A stretch of 32,667 nt of DNA from NCBI GenBank assembly GCA_015521465.1, contig WAOD01000005.1, forward strand, positions 1 to 32,667, written 5' to 3'. Shown here piece after piece: positions 13,434 to 21,247 of the stretch (within the stretch, counting starts at the first letter, position 1; the number at the start of each line of letters is the position of its first letter). The notes under the pieces are model-generated. The model ran no database searches. It was given only the letters and a program-made list of their open reading frames with translations, and was not told the origin of the DNA. This DNA is from DHVE2 group archaeon. GTDB taxonomy: Archaea > Thermoplasmatota > Thermoplasmata > Thermoplasmatales > Aciduliprofundaceae. The translations under genes and the position numbers were made by a program.

Positions 13434-13685
13434 ATGCTTGAAGATATATTGGGTTTCGCAGCGGGAACTTTGACCACGATAGCCTTCGTCCCTCAATTCC
13501 TAAAGGCATGGAAAACCAAGAGCACCAAGGATATTTCACTCTTCATGTTTCTCATTTTCACCATCGGTGTGGCGCTATGGCTCATTTACGGAATAATGAA
13601 ATTAGATTATCCTATTATCGCAGCAAACGCCATCACGGTGACCCTTGCCTCTATGATTTTAGCGATGAAAATTAAATACGGGTGA
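13434..13685 (+). CDS. SemiSWEET-type PQ-loop transporter
   Basis: An 83-residue three-helix membrane protein. The PQ motif (Pro20-Gln21 in AFVPQFLKAWKTKSTKDIS) and the later helix SLFMFLIFTIGVALWLIYGIMKLDYPI with the conserved Trp/Tyr-Gly match SemiSWEETs (MtN3/saliva family half-transporters), which dimerise to move sugars or similar small solutes. The length is normal for a SemiSWEET. It is monocistronic and followed 64 bp later by the zinc-ribbon/SPFH operon. The transported solute is unknown. Confidence 0.93.
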   Translation: MLEDILGFAAGTLTTIAFVPQFLKAWKTKSTKDISLFMFLIFTIGVALWLIYGIMKLDYPIIAANAITVTLASMILAMKIKYG

Positions 13686-13712
13686 CAAAATTCAGCGATT
13701 TTTAGGAAAAAG

Positions 13713-13720
13713 TTAAATAA
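13713..13720 (+). promoter_or_regulatory. TATA-like box for the zinc-ribbon/SPFH operon
   Basis: TTAAATAA lies 29 nt before the ATG at 13750, predicting a leader of some 5-8 nt. It is the only promoter-like element recognised ahead of the six-gene run, and the remaining gene junctions overlap or nearly abut. Confidence 0.45.
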
Positions 13721-13749
13721 AACACCCACATTAATGCATTGGGATAGCT

Positions 13750-14490
13750 ATGGTTACCATGAATTGTCCAAAGTGTGGGGCACCTTTTGAGTATGAGCCA
13801 GGAATGCGATTCAAAAAGTGCGATTATTGCGGAACAATGATATACATTGATAAAAGCCAAGTGATGTTTTACTACATAATTCCATTTACCATCGATTCAA
13901 AGCAGGTAATTCAGGTATTCAGGAGGTGGGCTTCGGGGCCTAAAATGGAAAAAGGCTTGGAAAATTCCCGTATAAAAAATGTGAAGGCAATGTACTTTCC
14001 GGTGTATCGCTTTGTACGGGATGTTGATGGAAAAGAAGAAGTTATGGTGAAACCCGCAAAGACCACCTTGTTGCCTGGATTAAGTAATTTGAAGATACCT
14101 CCTGGAGATATGAAGATATTTGATTCTTCTTTTAAAGTTGGAAACGTGAATGTTATTCATCCAGACTTGACCATGGATACCTACCAGAAAAATTTGCCTG
14201 GAATTGGGAAAGAGCAGGAAATAGTTTATTTCCCTATTTATGAGATAAGATACGAGTTTCAGGGTAAGGAGTACAGTGTGGTCGTGGATGGTTCTGCAGG
14301 AGAGATTTTTACATCGTATTATCCTCCAAGGTCATCGGTGCCATACCTGTCTATTGCTATGCTAACGTTCTTTTTAACAGCTGTTGGTGCGGCGGTAGGA
14401 ACAATGGTTTCGGCTTCCGGGTGGCTCCTAACTATCGGGGGCTTATTAGCGGGAATTGGAGGTGGTTATTATATTGCAAAAAAGTACTGA
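13750..14490 (+). CDS. Zinc-ribbon protein with C-terminal membrane hairpin (operon gene 1)
   Basis: A 246-residue protein. Residues 6-27 form a zinc ribbon with CPKC and CDYC. A soluble domain with mixed strands follows (about 40-190), including AMYFPVYRFVRDVDGKEEV and IVYFPIYEIRYEFQGKEYSVVVDGSAGEIF. The second of these, a strand pair with VDG-x-x-G, also occurs in the next gene (YYPVWIIRYDYKGKMYFLTVDGVTGRV), so the two are paralogues. Residues about 198-219 and 224-242 are two membrane helices. The ribbon and domain are probably cytosolic. Function is unknown. The layout resembles bacterial YdjG-type zinc-ribbon membrane proteins linked to SPFH proteins. Start is the ATG at 13750; a second ATG three codons on is possible. 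Confidence 0.82.
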   Translation: MVTMNCPKCGAPFEYEPGMRFKKCDYCGTMIYIDKSQVMFYYIIPFTIDSKQVIQVFRRWASGPKMEKGLENSRIKNVKAMYFPVYRFVRDVDGKEEVMVKPAKTTLLPGLSNLKIPPGDMKIFDSSFKVGNVNVIHPDLTMDTYQKNLPGIGKEQEIVYFPIYEIRYEFQGKEYSVVVDGSAGEIFTSYYPPRSSVPYLSIAMLTFFLTAVGAAVGTMVSASGWLLTIGGLLAGIGGGYYIAKKY

Positions 14491-14499
14491 GGTGGTTTT

Positions 14500-15483
14500 A
14501 TGAAACTTACTTTTGGTCTCTCATGCCCAAGCTGTGGAGGTCGCGTGGATTTAAAAGAAGGGGACAAGGTGGCTATTTGTCCATACTGCCACACTGTTTC
14601 AATTGTGAAGGGTGAGGATGATGTAAAGACCCTGGCTTATAAGATGGTTGTAAGTGAGAGTGCCGCTGTTAAAGTGGCAAAAAAATGGTTCAGGAAAGGC
14701 CTTAAAGCGAGAGATTTGAAAAAAGTTGCAAAGATAGTGGAAATTTATCCAGCGTACCTGCCTTTTTGGAAGTATCATGCAATAGGCCTTGGTATAATTT
14801 GCGGGTACAACTACGAAACACGCACTGACGCTAATGGAAACACTCACCGGGAGAAAGTGTACAAGGAGAAACAGATACGTAAGGATTATTTGTGGAATAA
14901 AATAGCGTGTGATGCGGGAGATATCGGTATTGAGCATTTGAAAAACACCCGTGGTGAGGTGATACCTCTACCGGAAGATGTGCCAGTATATGAGGCCACT
15001 ACTTCCAAAGATGATGCAAAGTCAGAGGGGGAAATTGCCATAAGAAAGTGGATTTTGGGAGAAGCGGGAATAGAAAATGTGACATTTCACAAAGAATTTG
15101 TCATACCCAAAGATTTCGTTCTTCTCTACTACCCTGTTTGGATAATCAGGTACGATTACAAGGGAAAAATGTATTTTCTCACGGTAGATGGGGTAACTGG
15201 CAGGGTTCTCTCTGGTAGGGCACCTGGAGATCCAGTTTGGCAAGCTTTGGCAATAGGAACGGGAGCGACTATAGGCGGGGTACTGACGGGTTTGACTCCG
15301 GTGGGGATGGAGTACGATTATCGTGTGGGCATAATCTTGTTTTTAACAGGATTGGCCGTGTTTGGTGCCTCATATTACTTCTTCAGGTATGGCTCCGAGA
15401 TAGTTGAAGGTGACCTTCCAAAGCCGTACAAGTTCGTAAGAATTGAAAAAATGAGCGCTCTTGGAAGGGGGGTATTGAGATGA
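14500..15483 (+). CDS. Zinc-ribbon protein with C-terminal membrane hairpin (operon gene 2)
   Basis: A 327-residue paralogue of the preceding gene. The zinc ribbon has Cys9, Cys12, Cys27 and Cys30 (CPSCGG and CPYCHT). The middle domain is longer, with YPAYLPFWKYHAIGLGIICGYNYETRT and an acidic, variable insert. It then has the strand unit YYPVWIIRYDYKGKMYFLTVDGVTGRV shared with gene 1. Two membrane helices follow (about 243-262 and 270-292), then a 35-residue tail. GAGGTGG lies upstream of the ATG, 9 nt after the gene 1 stop. The stop overlaps gene 3 by ATGA. No catalytic motif is seen; I infer a structural or sensory role at the membrane. Confidence 0.82.
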   Translation: MKLTFGLSCPSCGGRVDLKEGDKVAICPYCHTVSIVKGEDDVKTLAYKMVVSESAAVKVAKKWFRKGLKARDLKKVAKIVEIYPAYLPFWKYHAIGLGIICGYNYETRTDANGNTHREKVYKEKQIRKDYLWNKIACDAGDIGIEHLKNTRGEVIPLPEDVPVYEATTSKDDAKSEGEIAIRKWILGEAGIENVTFHKEFVIPKDFVLLYYPVWIIRYDYKGKMYFLTVDGVTGRVLSGRAPGDPVWQALAIGTGATIGGVLTGLTPVGMEYDYRVGIILFLTGLAVFGASYYFFRYGSEIVEGDLPKPYKFVRIEKMSALGRGVLR

Positions 15484-16067
15484 GTATAAAGCTTGTTCCT
15501 CTAAAATGTCCTCATTGCGGCTCGATTTTAAAATCAGATAGGAAGGACCTGCTTTACATGTGCGATAATTGTGGCACTTTTGTGTATGCGCCTACAGAAG
15601 CGGTAGTGAATGTGAAAATACTTGATTTTGAAGTTCTTCGAAATTCCAAGAAGTACTACATGCCAGTGCTGACTTATCTAACAAATGTGGAAATATACAG
15701 TGAGGAGGTTAGGGGATTCTTTAAGGAACGAGGCATGGGTGGCCGTTGGCTCACATATATCCCGGCTGGTGGCTCTCTTCCCGCCGAGGAGGTTGTAAGG
15801 CTTAGTAAGATGCTAACTTCCAATCCCCCTCAAGATAGCAAAGAAATAGATAGTTTCAGAGATGCAAGGCCACTACCTATGGAAATAACTATCGAAGAAG
15901 GGGCTGAACTGGCGGAGTTTGTATTTTTATCTTATGAAGTGGACAGGCCGGGAATACTTCAGGGAATCAACTACAGCTTTTCAGCGAATTTTAATGGGAT
16001 AGTCTATATCCCTGTTTATTACGAAGGTGGTTACCTTATTGGATTGAGAAGGTACGGGGGAAGATAA
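15480..16067 (+). CDS. Zinc-ribbon protein without membrane segment (operon gene 3)
   Basis: A 195-residue protein with an N-terminal zinc ribbon (Cys10, Cys13, Cys28, Cys31; CPHCGS and CDNCGT), the same spacing type as in genes 1 and 2. A soluble domain follows, with KKYYMPVLTYLTNVEIYSEE, then a loop GGRWLTYIPAGGSLPAEEVVRLSKML, and a C-terminal strand pair NGIVYIPVYYEGGYLIGLRRYG that again recalls the repeated strand unit of genes 1-2. It has no membrane helix and may act as a soluble partner. ATGA overlap with gene 2, and it abuts gene 4 directly (TAAATG). The family is not recognised. Confidence 0.8.
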   Translation: MSIKLVPLKCPHCGSILKSDRKDLLYMCDNCGTFVYAPTEAVVNVKILDFEVLRNSKKYYMPVLTYLTNVEIYSEEVRGFFKERGMGGRWLTYIPAGGSLPAEEVVRLSKMLTSNPPQDSKEIDSFRDARPLPMEITIEEGAELAEFVFLSYEVDRPGILQGINYSFSANFNGIVYIPVYYEGGYLIGLRRYGGR

Positions 16068-16385
16068 ATGAATGGGGATGATAAAAAGTTTTACGGGGTT
16101 TGGGGAGGGGTGCTGATCCTTGCAGGGATTGCGTCTGCTTTCTCCCTTTACGGATTGTGGGGTGATGCTGCTTTAATATTTTTTGGAGGCGTTGGTGTAG
16201 CTTTAATCGCTGTGATGGGAAGAGATAACATGAAACTATTTGGGGGAATTTCATTCATAATATTGGGGATTGTCATGTACTCTGCGTTGAATGGAGTGAG
16301 CATTGTATATGGGGTTGTAGCCTCCGTTATCGTTGCAGGAGGTCTGGTTGTATGGTATGGAATAAGAGGTGGTAGAAATGAATGA
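16068..16385 (+). CDS. Small integral membrane protein (operon gene 4)
   Basis: A 105-residue, Gly-rich, very hydrophobic protein with about four membrane helices: VWGGVLILAGIASAFSLYGL, DAALIFFGGVGVALIAVMG, LFGGISFIILGIVMYSAL and VVASVIVAGGLVVWYGI. The short ends carry charge (MNGDDKK and RGGRNE). Its ATG directly follows the TAA of gene 3. Size and topology are reminiscent of the small membrane partners (LiaI/PspB/PspC-like) seen in membrane-stress loci, but I see no sequence motif to prove it. Confidence 0.75.
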   Translation: MNGDDKKFYGVWGGVLILAGIASAFSLYGLWGDAALIFFGGVGVALIAVMGRDNMKLFGGISFIILGIVMYSALNGVSIVYGVVASVIVAGGLVVWYGIRGGRNE

Positions 16386-16896
16386 TATTCAGGATGTAGT
16401 GAAAAATGATAGGAGTTTCTTAAAGAAGATAGAGCTTGCAATTCCCGGGTTTAGGGGTTACAGGAAGCGAGAGGATATCAGAATAGCGGATAGTATGCTC
16501 AGGGATTACGTGGCAGGGATACTTGATGATGTGGAGAGGTATGCGAAAGATATTCGTGATACTGTCTCTGATGCTATGCTAATTGATGAAATTGATGATG
16601 TTGGTGAAATTGTGAATAAAGTAAGTGAAATAGTGAGCGAGGTGCGCCATGCTGAGCAGGGATACATGGGTTTGGTTGGAGATTACCGGGTAAATGATGA
16701 GCAGCTTAACAGGTTGTACGAGTTTGATTATGCTCTGATTGAAGATGCAAATGCCCTCAGAGCTCTTGTCAAAAGTATATCCTCCCGCAAACCTTCTGAG
16801 ATGATACAAATGCTTCCAGAGCTAAGTTTAAGGCTCAAAGATTTCGAGTCAAAGTTTAGGAAAAGACGCGATTACATGCTGGAGGTGTTCAAATGA
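16378..16896 (+). CDS. All-helical cytosolic protein (operon gene 5)
   Basis: A 172-residue protein predicted to be wholly helical, without membrane segments or Cys. It starts DIQDVVKNDRSFLKKIELAIPGFRGYRKREDIR. A long acidic helix bundle follows (DYVAGILDDVERYAKDIRDTV and EIVNKVSEIVSEVRHAEQGY), and it ends in KDFESKFRKRRDYMLEVF. The start ATG at 16378 has GAGGTGG 6 nt upstream; the open frame reaches a GTG at 16369 inside that site. It overlaps gene 4 by 8 nt and gene 6 by ATGA. Its place next to an SPFH gene is where PspA-type coiled-coil proteins sit in bacterial loci, but the sequence is shorter than PspA and not clearly homologous. Function unknown. Confidence 0.78.
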   Translation: MNDIQDVVKNDRSFLKKIELAIPGFRGYRKREDIRIADSMLRDYVAGILDDVERYAKDIRDTVSDAMLIDEIDDVGEIVNKVSEIVSEVRHAEQGYMGLVGDYRVNDEQLNRLYEFDYALIEDANALRALVKSISSRKPSEMIQMLPELSLRLKDFESKFRKRRDYMLEVFK

Positions 16897-18077
16897 TTTT
16901 AAGGAAGGAGAAAACAAGCAATTTGGAAGGAGCGGACGCACGCAACACCTATTTCTGGGTTGACCAGTACAAAGGGGAAAACGTGATGTGGAGATTACCT
17001 CATAACATAAAGTGGAACGATAATGTAGTAGTGAGAGAAGATGAATATGCGGTGTTCTTCCGAGACGGAAAAGCGCTTCACGTGTTCGACCGGCCTGGTC
17101 GCTATGCGCTTACCACAGAGAACGTTCCCGTTTTGGGAACAATCGTAAAGAAGGTAACTGGAATTCAGCAGATTGGCGAAATATACTATCTTCAGAGGAG
17201 AGAGCTACGGGGCAAATTCGGAACCTCCGAGCCGCTTTCATTCAGAGATCCGGATTTTGGAGTGGTGAGGATTCGTGCCTTCGGGCAATTCGCCTACAAA
17301 GTCGTAGAGCCAATGGTATTTATTACGGAATTCGTGGGCACGAAGGGATACACCACGAGCAAGGAGGTAATCGAATGGCTCAAAGACCAGATTGTTATGG
17401 ATCTCAACGACACAGTGGGTGAATTAAAGCTCAAGCACAACATGAGCATACTCGACTTGCCCGCTTATCTACAGGAAATTGAGCAGATGGTTCTGGCAAA
17501 GCTCAAAGACGACACAACGCGCTACGGACTGGAAGTAACTAAAATCGCAGGGCTGAATCTCAATCTTCCGGAAGAAGTGCAGGAAGCGATAGATAAGAGA
17601 GGAGCAATGGCCGCTCTGGGCGTGAATTACATGCAGTACCAAACCGGAAAGGCAATCGAAGATTTCGGAAAAGGCGCAGCCCAAGGAGGCGGGGGTACTG
17701 GAATGGCGGAAATGGGAGCCGGAATGGGCGCGGGATTCGCCATGGCCAACGCCATGGGACAGGGGATGCAACCAATGCAGGGAATGCAGCAACCCGCACC
17801 TCCGGGGCCGCAGGTGGGAATGAAGAAATGCCCCAACTGCGGGAAGATGGTACCCAGCGACGCTCAATTTTGTCCCTATTGTGGCTACAAATTCGAAGAG
17901 AAAAAAATGAAGAAATGTGTTAAGTGCGGCCGAGAGATTCCTGCTGATGCGAAATTCTGCCCGTACTGCGGTGCGCCCCAGCCAGAAAAATCAGGAACAA
18001 TACACTGTCCTAACTGCGGAAAGGAAATTCCGGCGGACGTGGCGTTCTGTCCTTACTGCGGGTACAAACTCAAATGA
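16893..18077 (+). CDS. SPFH/stomatin-like protein with three C-terminal zinc ribbons (COG4260/YdjI type)
   Basis: A 394-residue protein, last in the operon. An SPFH-type core spans about residues 25-250: the N-terminal VDQYKGENVMWRLPHNIKWNDNVVVREDEYAVFFRDGKALHVFDRPGRYALTT pattern, then RIRAFGQFAYKV and a long amphipathic helical part. A Gly/Met/Ala-rich linker (about 255-309) follows. Residues 310-394 hold three zinc ribbons of the form CPxCG-x9-FCPYCG, evenly spaced. The family (COG4260, B. subtilis YdjI) is thought to assemble on membranes; no N-terminal membrane helix is visible, so attachment may be peripheral. It overlaps gene 5 by ATGA. Codons here look richer in G/C than in genes 1-5. 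T-rich DNA follows the stop. Confidence 0.88.
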   Translation: MILRKEKTSNLEGADARNTYFWVDQYKGENVMWRLPHNIKWNDNVVVREDEYAVFFRDGKALHVFDRPGRYALTTENVPVLGTIVKKVTGIQQIGEIYYLQRRELRGKFGTSEPLSFRDPDFGVVRIRAFGQFAYKVVEPMVFITEFVGTKGYTTSKEVIEWLKDQIVMDLNDTVGELKLKHNMSILDLPAYLQEIEQMVLAKLKDDTTRYGLEVTKIAGLNLNLPEEVQEAIDKRGAMAALGVNYMQYQTGKAIEDFGKGAAQGGGGTGMAEMGAGMGAGFAMANAMGQGMQPMQGMQQPAPPGPQVGMKKCPNCGKMVPSDAQFCPYCGYKFEEKKMKKCVKCGREIPADAKFCPYCGAPQPEKSGTIHCPNCGKEIPADVAFCPYCGYKLK

Positions 18078-18090
18078 TTTTTCTTTTTTC
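18078..18090 (+). terminator. T-rich terminator after the SPFH operon
   Basis: Directly after the TGA the coding strand reads five T, C, six T, C: the oligo-T type of archaeal termination signal, with no strong hairpin before it. Confidence 0.5.
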
Positions 18091-18183
18091 ATTTTCTATC
18101 TGCAGTTTGTATTTAGCAAGAAATAAATCAATTATCCTATCATTGGCATACGAGTAATATAAAAGTCAACAAAATTTTCCTAT

Positions 18184-18205
18184 AAAAAAGCAAAATGGAA
18201 AAAAA
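18184..18205 (-). terminator. T-rich terminator after the DUF35 gene
   Basis: On the reverse strand, runs of seven T (18199-18205) and six T (18184-18189) follow within 25 nt of the DUF35 stop codon. With the opposing T-tract at 18078, this makes the 130-bp convergent interval a two-way termination zone. Confidence 0.5.
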
Positions 18206-18207
18206 TT

Positions 18208-18612
18208 TTACTTCTCGTCCGGCACGAATTTGTACCCGTACTGGATAATGCCCGCCTTGCCATCCTCGGCTATTCTTCTAAAAACGGCATGCACTGGCAT
18301 GCCTATGTGCACCTTCTCAGGGTCCACATCAACGATTTGCCCTGTGATCTTCGGGCCCTCGGGAGTCTCTATGATTGCCATCACATAGGGCTTTTGATAT
18401 TTGTATCCAAGAACGTTCTGATGCACCACGGTGTACGAGTACACTTTACCCTTACCGCTGAGCTGCACCTCTTCCATCTTACCAACGCTTTCACGACCGC
18501 ATTTGGGGCAGACATCTCGAGGTGGGAAATAAACGGTGCCGCAAACAGGGCAGCGTGTTCCTATTAGCGAGTATCTGTATCTTCTTTCTCTCCAGAATCG
18601 TGGTACTACCAT
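18208..18612 (-). CDS. DUF35 OB-fold/zinc-ribbon scaffold protein of the thiolase–HMG-CoA synthase complex
   Basis: A 134-residue DUF35 protein. It opens with a helical RFWRERRYRYSLIGTR, then a rubredoxin-like zinc ribbon (Cys21, Cys24, Cys35, Cys38), then an OB-fold with GKGKVYSYTVVHQNVLGYKYQKPYVMAIIET and ITGQIVDVDPEKVHIGMPV. In archaea this protein holds acetoacetyl-CoA thiolase and HMG-CoA synthase together so that the unfavourable thiolase product is passed on directly (shown structurally for a methanogen complex). It begins 1 nt after the thiolase stop. Its position in the trio makes the assignment secure. Confidence 0.95.
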   Translation of the reverse strand: MVVPRFWRERRYRYSLIGTRCPVCGTVYFPPRDVCPKCGRESVGKMEEVQLSGKGKVYSYTVVHQNVLGYKYQKPYVMAIIETPEGPKITGQIVDVDPEKVHIGMPVHAVFRRIAEDGKAGIIQYGYKFVPDEK

Positions 18613-18613
18613 T

Positions 18614-19780
18614 TTACATCACCTCCACGATGTGAATTATGCTGGAAGTCATAGTTCCTCCAACATTATGGGCGAGGCCTACCTTTGCATCTGGTACCTG
18701 TCTCTTTCCAGCTTCGTTGCGTAACTGCTTAACTAATTCTACGACCTGTCCAACTCCCGTGGCTCCGACAGGATGACCCTTCGCTTTCAATCCGCCGGAT
18801 ACATTGTACGGTAGGTCTCCATCGTAGTACAACTGGCCTTCTTCTGCAAGCTTTATTCCCTCGCCTTTCTTCGCAAATCCCAGGTCTTCAATGCCCAAAA
18901 GTGCTATTATGGAAAACGCATCGTGGATTTCCGCAAGGTCAATATCCTTCGGCTCTTTCTTTGCCATCTTGTACGCTTTCTTGCCAGCTTCCACGGTGGA
19001 TTTGGAAACTGTTAGCGACTCTCTCTCATGCAAAGAGATGTAATCGTTCGCAGCAACCGATGCACTTATCTTTATGGGCGAATCGGTGTATTTTCTGGCT
19101 ATATCTGCAGATGCTAAAACCACAGCTGCGCCGCCGTCGCTCACCGGCGAGCAGTTCATTATGGTCAATGGATCTGCTACCATGGGGGCATTTAGAACCT
19201 GCTCCACGGTAACTTCCCTCTGGAAATGAGCATCGGGATTCATCGCACCGTGCTTGTGAGCAATAACCGGAAGAAGGGCCATCTGCTCCCTCGTAAGCCC
19301 ATACTCGTGCATATAGCGGCGTGCCATCATGGCGCCCAGCGCAGGGAAAGTGGCTCCAAAGAACACTTCCCATTCTCGATCGGCAGCACCGGCCAAGATG
19401 TTGGTGACCATATCCCCGGGGAGATCGGTCATCTTTTCCACGCCGCCCACTAATACTATATCGTAGAGCCCGGAGGCAACAGCCATGTAACCTGAATGAA
19501 GAGCAGCCGCACCGCTTGCGCAGGCTGATTCGACCCTTATTGCAGGCACATTGTGTTCAGTCAATCCGGCAAAATCAGCGATTAAAGCGCCCACATGGTC
19601 TTGGCCTACGAAACTGCCAGCGCTCATGTTACCACCGAATATGGCCTGAATATCCTCCGCGCCTATGTTCGCATCTTCTATTGCCATCAAGCCGGCTTCC
19701 ACCGCTAAATTCCTGAGACTCTTCTCCCAGTGCTCTCCATACTTGGTCTCGCCGGCACCGATTATTGCAACATCTCTCAT
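18614..19780 (-). CDS. Acetyl-CoA C-acetyltransferase (archaeal SCP2-thiolase-like)
   Basis: The enzyme joins two acetyl-CoA into acetoacetyl-CoA, first step of the mevalonate pathway. The 388 residues contain the nucleophile Cys87 in RVESACASGAAALHSG, the NCSPVSDGGAAVVLAS loop, the EIHDAFSI block, and the C-terminal His in LKAKGHPVGATGVGQV. The last catalytic region reads AHNVGGTMTSS instead of the CxG of classical degradative thiolases, which is usual in this archaeal branch. It abuts HMG-CoA synthase (no gap) and DUF35, so the three should be made together. Confidence 0.95.
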   Translation of the reverse strand: MRDVAIIGAGETKYGEHWEKSLRNLAVEAGLMAIEDANIGAEDIQAIFGGNMSAGSFVGQDHVGALIADFAGLTEHNVPAIRVESACASGAAALHSGYMAVASGLYDIVLVGGVEKMTDLPGDMVTNILAGAADREWEVFFGATFPALGAMMARRYMHEYGLTREQMALLPVIAHKHGAMNPDAHFQREVTVEQVLNAPMVADPLTIMNCSPVSDGGAAVVLASADIARKYTDSPIKISASVAANDYISLHERESLTVSKSTVEAGKKAYKMAKKEPKDIDLAEIHDAFSIIALLGIEDLGFAKKGEGIKLAEEGQLYYDGDLPYNVSGGLKAKGHPVGATGVGQVVELVKQLRNEAGKRQVPDAKVGLAHNVGGTMTSSIIHIVEVM

Positions 19781-20824
19781 TTAATCCACCTCCACAATCA
19801 TCCTTCTGAATTTGAGATATGTGGCGTAATCTATGTACTTCGCCCTGTTCACCATGTCCATAACCTTCGGAGCAGCATCTCTATTGTAGGAATCCATTTT
19901 ATCGGTCACAGTGATATCAAAAGCATCGCTCCCCGCGCCGCTTCCAAAGGATACAGCGATTATTCTATCACCGGGCTTTGCAATATCCAGAACTGCGCTC
20001 AATCCCGTGGGCGTTCCCCCGGAGTACGTGTTGCCTATGTATGGAGATATGAGCCCGGACTTTATCTGGTCATTGCTGAATCCCAATCTCTTTCCAACGC
20101 GGTAAGGGAACTTGCCGTTGGGCTGGTGAAACACCACGTAATCGTAATCTTCTGGCTTCGTGCCTGCTTTTTCCATGAGCATCTTGGCCGAGGACATCAC
20201 GTGCTTGAAATACGCCGGCTCTCCTGTGAATCTTCCACCGTGCGATGGATATCTCTGACCTTCGCGGCGCCAGAAATCCGGGGTATCGGTTACGAATGAA
20301 ACTGTGTGATTAATCTCCGCGATTACGTCCTCTTTTCCGATTATATATGCGGTTCCGCCAGCGGAGGCGGAATAATCCAACGCATCTCCCGGTTGTCCTT
20401 GCGAGGTGTCCGTTCCTATTGCTATGCCGTAATCAATCATTCCAGCTTTGACCATGGCGTACACGTTCTGCATTGCCGCCGTTCCAGCTTTGCATGCAAA
20501 TTCGAGGTCTGCGGCATGCGCTTTATACGCACCAACAACCTCAGCAATAAGAGAGGCCGTCGGTTTAACCGCATAGGGATGCGATTCGCTACCAACAAAA
20601 ATCGCGCCAATCTTCTCGCCGGGTATGTTCTTCCTTTTTAGCGCGTTTCGAAGCGCTTCCACAGCTATAGTTGCGGCGTCTTCGTCGTATCCAGGTACTG
20701 ATTTTGCTAAAAGTCCAAGGCCTTTTTCAGGATGTTCCGGTTTGTCACCCCACATCTTTGCAATCTCTGCAGTTTTTATTCTGTAAATTGGTATATAACT
20801 ACCATAGGTAACTATACCAGTCAT
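19781..20824 (-). CDS. Hydroxymethylglutaryl-CoA synthase
   Basis: HMG-CoA synthase condenses acetyl-CoA with acetoacetyl-CoA for archaeal lipid isoprenoids. The 347-residue length is typical of archaeal enzymes. Catalytic residues are visible: Glu80 in [12 protein letters not shown], the nucleophile Cys111 in [12 protein letters not shown] and His233 in [11 protein letters not shown]; the [11 protein letters not shown] loop and [11 protein letters not shown] motif near the C-terminus are also present. It is the first gene of the trio. AAGGTGAG lies 3 nt upstream of the ATG and a CTAAATAG-like box at 20857-20864 about 32 nt upstream, so this transcript seems to have a short leader. Confidence 0.97.
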
Positions 20825-20856
20825 AATCTCACCTTCAAGGCCTCAAAGTTGAACAG

Positions 20857-20864
20857 CTATTTAG
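20857..20864 (-). promoter_or_regulatory. TATA-like box for the HMG-CoA synthase operon
   Basis: The reverse strand reads CTAAATAG, placing initiation about 8-10 nt ahead of the ATG at 20824. It coincides with the final stop codon of the interrupted Toprim reading frame. Confidence 0.4.
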
Positions 20865-21247
20865 TCTTTACCGTTGTTCAATTCGTCAATGGTCGTATAT
20901 TTAAAAAGCATAACTCTTCTACAGATCTTATGTGCGGGACTTTTTTTTATAAATGCGTCTCTAAACTCGTGATGTATGTAAATATTGTACCCATCTAAAA
21001 GTCTATTTAATCTTTTTGTTAGTTTCCAACCTTTCTTATCTCAATTCATAAGTAAAATGACTTCTTTGTATGTATTTGCCACCATGTCAGCGAATTCTAC
21101 GATTGTTATGCCAGTGTTAATTTTCAGGATCTCCCCTTTCAAACCAAGGTTACGCAGAGTTTCAACATCACGCTCTCTTTCTACAATTACTGGAATTGTG
21201 CAATTCAAAGTTTTCAGCTCTTCTATGAATTTATTTAATTTTCTCAA
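20861..21247 (-). pseudogene. Toprim-domain protein interrupted by an in-frame TGA
   Basis: This is a small stand-alone Toprim protein (DnaG/RNase M5-like fold). The 5' part reads CTIPVIVERERDVETLRNLG and LKINTGITIVEFADM, then KEVILLMN, and stops at TGA (21043-21041). The same frame goes on without another stop for 59 codons, DKKGWKLTKRLNRLLDGYNI and IYIHHEFRDAFIKKS, to TAA at 20863-20861. Together this gives about 128 residues from the TTG at 21247, the usual size. In the family the interrupted spot is the acidic metal-binding motif, commonly (T)DWD; here it is N-stop-D. So TGA replaces what is usually Trp, and the first Asp is Asn. I call it a probable pseudogene; a sequencing error at one base is the main alternative. 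The start overlaps the DUF167 gene by 17 nt; the frame is open to 21325. Confidence 0.7.

Follow-up and report, generated by a model that had tools for sequence, protein, structure and literature searches.

A conserved archaeal operon combines genes for zinc-ribbon membrane proteins, a helical protein and a YdjI-type SPFH protein

The window analysed here, 32,667 nucleotides from an Aciduliprofundum-like archaeon of the DHVE2 group (contig WAOD01000005.1), contains six open reading frames in the same direction at positions 13750–18077 (+ strand, as for all coordinates below), and both the operon and its coordinates were verified. A TATA-like promoter box with a TTAAATAA core lies ∼30 nt 5′ of the first gene (13712–13723), and judging from sequence its position is kept in DHVE2 relatives (L069–L074), where TTAAATAA is found upstream of g1 in 5 of 6 cases and TTTATATA in the remaining one. 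This agrees with the first-pass annotation, which had placed one promoter-like box ahead of the six genes. A T-rich tract 3′ of g6 (18077–18102), with similar tracts in several relatives, is the likely archaeal terminator. Genes g1 and g2 are separated by 9 nt, g2 and g3 share a 4-nt ATGA overlap, g3 and g4 abut with a 0-nt gap, g4 and g5 overlap by 8 nt, and g5 and g6 again share a 4-nt ATGA. The original description of all junctions as ATGA overlaps or gaps of 0–9 nt applies to most of them but not to g4/g5, where the overlap is not ATGA. The start of g5 is an ATG at 16378, while a longer variant beginning with GTG at 16369 is possible. The operon lies among housekeeping genes. A recombination breakpoint falls within it, and the segment from g6 to HMGS and the semiSWEET gene has its origin in another lineage; we rejected an import of g1–g5 as a cassette, as the opposite is seen and g1–g3 and g5 fit the genome backbone.

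Three of the encoded proteins carry a single N-terminal zinc ribbon, as had been read from their CxxC...CxxC motifs, and the four ribbon cysteines of each are kept in at least 97% of homologues. In g1 (13750–14490, 246 aa) the ribbon is followed by a beta domain and a C-terminal hydrophobic hairpin, and in g2 (14500–15483, 327 aa) by a C-terminal TM hairpin and a long beta domain that holds an additional conserved Cys pair (C101 and C137). These two proteins, both ending in membrane segments, are indeed paralogues (hhalign 99.6%). A more distant relative of g2, g3 (15480–16067, 195 aa), combines its ribbon with a soluble domain and has no TM segment. The g1/g2 profiles match “TFIIB-type zinc ribbon” proteins (YdjG/YdjI kind) encoded 3′ of the same SPFH family in bacteria, with best hmmsearch E-values of 1e-20 to 1e-24 for three proteins encoded after Band_7_1 genes and hhalign values of 98.6–98.9%, and the suspected kinship to the bacterial SPFH/zinc-ribbon/membrane kind thus holds at the profile level. 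By comparison with these bacterial proteins encoded after Band_7_1 genes, both g1 and g2 count as YdjG-type (zinc-ribbon/YpeB-like/TM) proteins. In g2 there is a weak Pfam match to PepSY/YPEB, and a Foldseek search with its model returns YpeB at E 0.95 at best. Resemblances of this model to beta-pore proteins were dismissed as long-strand artefacts (TM-scores ≤0.14 to the query, none at E ≤ 0.001). The fourth gene, g4 (16068–16385, 105 aa), encodes a small, fast-changing membrane protein that precedes g5 in other archaea too. It had been described as having four helices; it is indeed a small multi-TM protein, but only three segments are clear in the window copy and four in relatives. No Pfam match was found for g4, and TPM is not among the Pfam matches listed for the other genes of the operon.

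The last gene, g6 (16893–18077, 394 aa), encodes a cytosolic protein with a Band_7_1 domain (2e-45; 155 bits, with the gathering cut-off at 24), a Gly/Met low-complexity linker, and three C-terminal Zn_Ribbon_1 domains, which bears out its assignment as an SPFH protein with three zinc ribbons. All twelve ribbon cysteines are kept in at least 96% of homologues. The missing TM segment, the low-complexity linker, and the C-terminal zinc ribbon are traits of YdjI, the B. subtilis protein described as soluble, dependent on YdjG and YdjH to reach the membrane, and able to bind PspA (PMC8581546). The SPFH homology of g6 would also suit a quality-control cage, in which an enclosure like that of HflK/C or flotillin sequesters membrane proteins, g5 acts as a chaperone or as an adaptor for substrates, and clients are recognised by the ribbons, all without any sensing of damage. 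Client recognition fits zinc ribbons and a helical adaptor, and Band-7 proteins have been proposed to act as chaperone-like assemblers near PspA (PMC11237479); however, the operon encodes neither a protease nor an AAA+ ATPase, and g6, unlike HflK/C and flotillins, has no TM segment. We regard such a cage as conceivable but on the unlikely side. Considerably more improbable is a metal or redox relay, in which the clustered ribbons would sense zinc or oxidants and alter the SPFH scaffold. While six ribbons per operon, their near-invariant cysteines, and the extra Cys pair of g2 speak for it, zinc ribbons in general mostly stabilise structure or mediate interactions, and the operon has no metal transporter or redox enzyme.

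Between g4 and g6 lies g5 (16378–16896), whose 172-aa product had been classed as an all-helical cytosolic protein. Its AF2 model is a compact four-helix bundle (pLDDT 88.5), and a PGxxGYRxxEDxRxAD motif is nearly invariant in the family. NCBIfam NF047596, the LIMLP_15305 family of Leptospira with “function unknown”, matches the window g5 over nearly its full length with 48 bits (1e-12) against a curated cut-off of 210, and is matched by 16/16 g5 proteins in our alignment (best 6e-20). By profile similarity, g5 is a relative, not a member, of this family. The structure prediction and the comparison with PspA/Snf7 profiles that the first-pass annotation had suggested for g5 both point away from PspA: none of the 16 family members matches Pfam PspA or Snf7, and the model does not have the PspA fold. 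It has no PDB match at E ≤ 0.001, the 50 structure matches listed include no ESCRT-III protein, and PspA is represented among them only by a phage protein (E 1.3). An identity of g5 as PspA/ESCRT-III is ruled out by profile (no match) and by fold (a compact bundle without a long helical hairpin). Pfam matches of g5 to LXG, Vps5, COG6, and others are scattered over one or two members apiece and were set aside as coiled-coil noise.

PspA is missing not only from the operon, as had been noticed, but from the whole genome, with no match to PF04012 (PspA_IM30) in g5 or elsewhere. One rival reading is that g5 replaces PspA functionally, as a non-homologous helical effector that the SPFH scaffold brings to a leaky membrane. 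In such a model the position of g5 next to a YdjI-type SPFH gene would be expected, and among 145 Thermoplasmatota genomes PspA is present in 1, while g5 is counted in 51 (40 in the co-occurrence count below). However, 4 of the 16 g5-bearing Halobacteriota genomes carry PspA as well, with no significant avoidance (p = 0.19), and g5 lacks the long ESCRT-III/PspA hairpin and has no demonstrated amphipathic membrane helix. Because the four genomes carry both, a simple substitution of PspA by g5 is not supported, and we think a functional replacement unlikely. The earlier picture of an unrelated-looking helical protein in the place of PspA is consequently upheld as regards homology and fold, but not as a simple takeover.

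Across 84,980 species genomes, a narrow g5 alignment, which reaches archaeal but not bacterial family members, detected g5 at 74 archaeal loci in two phyla, Thermoplasmatota and Halobacteriota, and the gene set is thus conserved outside its source genome, a point on which the original proposal hinged. In 71 of these loci g6 lies directly 3′ of g5, and in the remaining three a contig end interrupts the locus (71/71 testable). The trio g1-g2-g3 is found near g5 in 31/74 loci in three orders (g5-g6-g1-g2-g3 in 19, g1-g2-g3-(g4)-g5-g6 in 9, and divergent in 3), and its retention despite reshuffling suggests a shared function. The complete set also occurs in Halobacteriota genomes on long single contigs. 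None of g1–g3 is nearby in 19/74 loci, among them short contigs, and as g1–g3 are absent from many g5-g6 loci these proteins may be dispensable or replaced. In the 145 Thermoplasmatota genomes, g5 and SPFH genes occur together in 39, g5 alone in 1, SPFH alone in 3, and neither in 102, with g5 within 400 nt of 38/43 SPFH genes. The module is dispensable, since g2, g5, and the SPFH gene are all absent from G034 and G068, the two nearest complete genomes within the family. Together, the recurrence of the g5-g6 pair and of the g1–g3 set across tens of archaeal genomes is far beyond chance. Rather than an orphan, g5, which is related to an NCBIfam family without assigned function, is obligately linked to the SPFH gene.

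The patchy distribution and the breakpoint within the operon could hint at anti-viral defence or mobile-element cargo, but we give this very little credence: the genes are under strong purifying selection (dN/dS = 0.04–0.10 against the nearest relative, where computable), their surroundings are housekeeping genes, and the only PADLOC match, Cas11b to g5 (0.0013), is at chance level. No g5 was found in viral contigs or plasmids, and no SPFH domain in phage records.

We favour a model, with about an even chance of being correct, in which the six genes specify a single scaffold complex docked to the membrane, with g5 as the partner of g6, most likely maintaining or sensing the state of the membrane under envelope stress. 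In the physical complex and topology we infer, g6 would be a soluble SPFH protein that oligomerises like other SPFH proteins and is unable to bind the membrane alone. Its anchors would be g1 and g2, aided by g3 and g4, with the C-terminal hairpins of g1/g2 keeping ribbons and beta domains at the cytosolic face and thereby tethering, perhaps gating, g6. Always encoded right before g6, g5 would serve the SPFH assembly in the cytosol as a constitutive partner or effector, likely docking through its conserved basic/aromatic loop. The stress function is inferred by analogy with YdjG/YdjH/YdjI, according to which the complex would keep or sense membrane state in a phylum nearly without PspA. A more speculative extension, which we consider doubtful, is that g5 represents an undescribed class of SPFH-dependent helical effector, wide in euryarchaea and distantly in bacteria, acting on membranes where PspA is absent, and that such membrane-repair machinery has its conserved core in the SPFH scaffold and not in PspA.

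Little is known of envelope-stress systems in archaea. Surveys have been built around PspA and PspC, and searches organised in this way would miss a PspA-free module. The operon brings to light a strictly SPFH-linked protein family without assigned function, and its conserved gene set lends itself to testing in Methanomicrobium and Methanosarcina, genera represented by long or cultivated genomes. If the analogy is true, an SPFH protein with a zinc-ribbon membrane anchor would be the transferable core and the helical partner would vary, from PspA in B. subtilis to g5 in archaea and perhaps TelA in some bacteria.

With the B. subtilis pspA-ydjGHI system (PMC8581546, PMC9239133, PMC11237479) the archaeal operon shares a soluble, TM-less Band_7_1 SPFH protein with a C-terminal zinc ribbon, a YdjG-type membrane protein bearing a zinc ribbon, and further membrane proteins in one operon. 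In contrast to that system it has neither PspA nor the TPM-domain protein YdjH, and it has g5, a pair of YdjG-type proteins, a third ribbon protein that is soluble, and a protein with four TM segments. In bacterial pairs of SPFH and TFIIB-type zinc-ribbon genes (for example in Comamonas, NZ_CP083452, and in Paracoccus, CP038202, with TelA and DUF2927) the SPFH gene is likewise followed by one for a zinc-ribbon protein homologous to g1/g2, but the bacterial protein has two ribbons and g1 and g2 one each; g5 is present in 0/6 of the loci read. Finally, while the Meth_adaptin archaeal ESCRT loci (PMC11188069) contain Vps4, adaptin-appendage, and ProX genes that this operon does not have, they too tie an archaeal zinc-ribbon SPFH protein to membrane remodelling.

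The six co-directional open reading frames (ORFs) at 13750–18077 of the forward strand have the order and tight junctions of the single operon proposed by the first-pass annotation, and its zinc ribbons, membrane proteins and SPFH protein are likewise found, with ribbons in g1, g2, g3 and g6 and transmembrane (TM) segments in g1, g2 and g4. Our ORF reading of the window gives an 8-nt overlap at the g4/g5 junction; a TATA-like box ∼30 nt 5′ of g1 recurs in six of six close relatives (TTAAATAA in five, TTTATATA in one), and a T-rich sequence lies 3′ of g6. The ribbon proteins g1 and g2 are paralogues (hhalign 99.6%, E 2e-24), in each of which a single ribbon and a beta domain are combined with a membrane hairpin at the C-terminus. 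The third, g3, combines one ribbon with a soluble domain and shows distant similarity to g2 (hhalign 97.6%, with the ribbon accounting for much of it), its similarity to g1 being confined to the ribbon. Outside its ribbon g2 carries an extra cysteine pair, C101 (14800–14802) and C137 (14908–14910), kept in 94–97% of g2 homologues and possibly a disulfide or second metal site. The small four-TM protein g4 (16068–16385) had no match in a Pfam search, and four-TM ORFs at the same position in other archaea look homologous to it (hhalign 94–98% versus 0.2% for a semiSWEET control, although hydrophobic proteins inflate such scores).

The final gene, g6, encodes a protein lacking TM segments, in which a Band_7_1 SPFH domain (2e-45) is accompanied by three zinc ribbons. 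Its upstream neighbor g5 matched no Pfam family; 16 of 16 homologues match the NCBIfam family NF047596, which is based on Leptospira and has no assigned function, with the window g5 itself well below the cut-off. The AF2 model of g5 is a four-helix bundle (pLDDT 88.5, pTM 0.84) without significant match in the PDB or a viral structure library, and its conserved residues cluster in an N-terminal loop (PGxxGYRxxEDxRxAD), the H91–G98 region and Y114/D117.

The first-pass annotation had set conservation beyond the source genome (1.5 Mb, 108 contigs, 96% complete) as a test, and both g5–g6 and g1–g3 recur in other archaea. Scanning 84,980 species genomes for g5 gave 74 loci, which fall in Thermoplasmatota, Methanomicrobiales and Methanosarcina, the nearest relatives of the source genome being DHVE2-group archaea; further loci may exist because the scan used short conserved peptides. 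With gene calls in relatives made mechanically, g6 lies directly 3′ of g5 in 71 of the 74 loci, the remaining three ending at a contig edge. The g1–g2–g3 genes are near g5–g6 in 31 loci (19 after, 9 before, 3 divergent), and 20 others have a g2-like match alone; two of these g2-like proteins, from loci of Thermoplasmatales type and read at full length, have two ribbons each, as in the bacterial protein. In some genomes (G005, G017 and G055) g1–g2 and g5–g6 are separate, on the same or different contigs. As the two sets are joined in some loci and apart in others, the module consists of two submodules, g5–g6 and g1–g2–g3, repeatedly joined. Among 145 Thermoplasmatota genomes, 39 combine a close g5 with a full SPFH gene, 1 has g5 alone and 3 have SPFH alone (Fisher p 1e-30, without correction for phylogeny). 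Among 247 Halobacteriota genomes g5 is present in 16, in several of which one long contig carries the complete set. g5 belongs with the SPFH protein.

Distant g5 relatives in loci L178 and L181 are followed by genes for 400–485 aa proteins ending in a zinc ribbon (L178:7480–8682 and L181:909–2366); their starts are SPFH-like by eye, a Pfam Band_7 match is absent, and they are possibly a diverged SPFH family. Second, divergent g5-like genes occur in two Halobacteriota genomes (L167 and L174), adjoined by a CheW gene and not by an SPFH gene, and 3′ of g3 in one Thermoplasmata genome (L100:5861–6373).

Most window genes compared have ∼90% DNA identity to genome G148 and near 70–76% to G397 and G396. 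In contrast, the tract at 16.9–20.9 kb (16900–20890: g6, an OB-fold zinc-ribbon gene, thiolase and HMG-CoA synthase) and, as a separate tract, the semiSWEET gene (13434–13685) are ∼88–91% identical to G397 and less so to G148. GC3 is 0.50–0.57 in these tracts versus 0.33–0.46 in most other window genes, the NUDIX gene (0.51) excepted. A recombination breakpoint falls near the g5/g6 border, and g4 shares only 44% protein identity with its G148 copy, versus 92% for g3, 86% for g5 and 86–97% for neighbors. Together the tracts, the breakpoint and the g4 divergence indicate that exchange between lineages cuts through the operon. g4 (16068–16385) is hypervariable, yet its copies in G148 and G395 look nearly the same. 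The 98% identity of g6 to its G397 counterpart suggests that the SPFH protein may well be interchangeable between lineages.

Searching for PspA (PF04012), with recovery in E. coli, B. subtilis and others as control, showed it to be absent from the source genome and over the cut-off in 1 of 145 Thermoplasmatota genomes. PspA is present in 108 of 247 Halobacteriota, including 4 of the 16 with g5 (p 0.19); g5 is thus not PspA, nor is it plainly a substitute for it.

Building on the established gene set, homologies, obligate g5–g6 linkage, ribbon conservation and g5 fold class, we propose a model, to which we give an even chance, in which the C-terminal hairpins of g1/g2 would hold the ribbons on the cytosolic side, g1/g2 would tether the SPFH assembly, g5 would dock onto it, and the whole would maintain or monitor membrane state. 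The main competing explanation is a pure quality-control scaffold.

The tethering proposed for g1/g2 can be set beside bacterial systems. In Comamonas and Paracoccus replicons a Band_7_1 gene is followed by one annotated as a zinc-ribbon or TFIIB-type zinc-ribbon protein, and in Vibrio and Tsukamurella by a hypothetical protein alignable with these. The g1/g2 profiles find the Comamonas, Paracoccus and Vibrio proteins with best E values of 1e-20 to 1e-24, and an alignment of all four bacterial proteins matches g1/g2 at 98.6–98.9% in profile–profile comparison; g2 also has a weak PepSY/YPEB match, located in the matching region. On the Paracoccus plasmid (L145:2671–6101) TelA and a DUF2927 protein precede the SPFH/zinc-ribbon pair, possibly as another helical partner at the PspA position. 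Given the bacterial profile matches and the PepSY/YPEB match, we regard the SPFH and anchor homology as tested. Published work assigns YdjG two ribbons together with a YpeB-like domain and one TM segment (PMC11237479). The bacterial protein following Band_7_1 has two ribbons, whereas g1 and g2 have one each. In B. subtilis, soluble YdjI depends on YdjG and YdjH for membrane localization and is required to bring PspA to the membrane (PMC8581546). Of the earlier proposal of an archaeal relative of ydjFGHI without PspA, the SPFH and anchor homology stands at the profile level, as does the lack of PspA, and a membrane-stress function would be carried over from B. subtilis by analogy.
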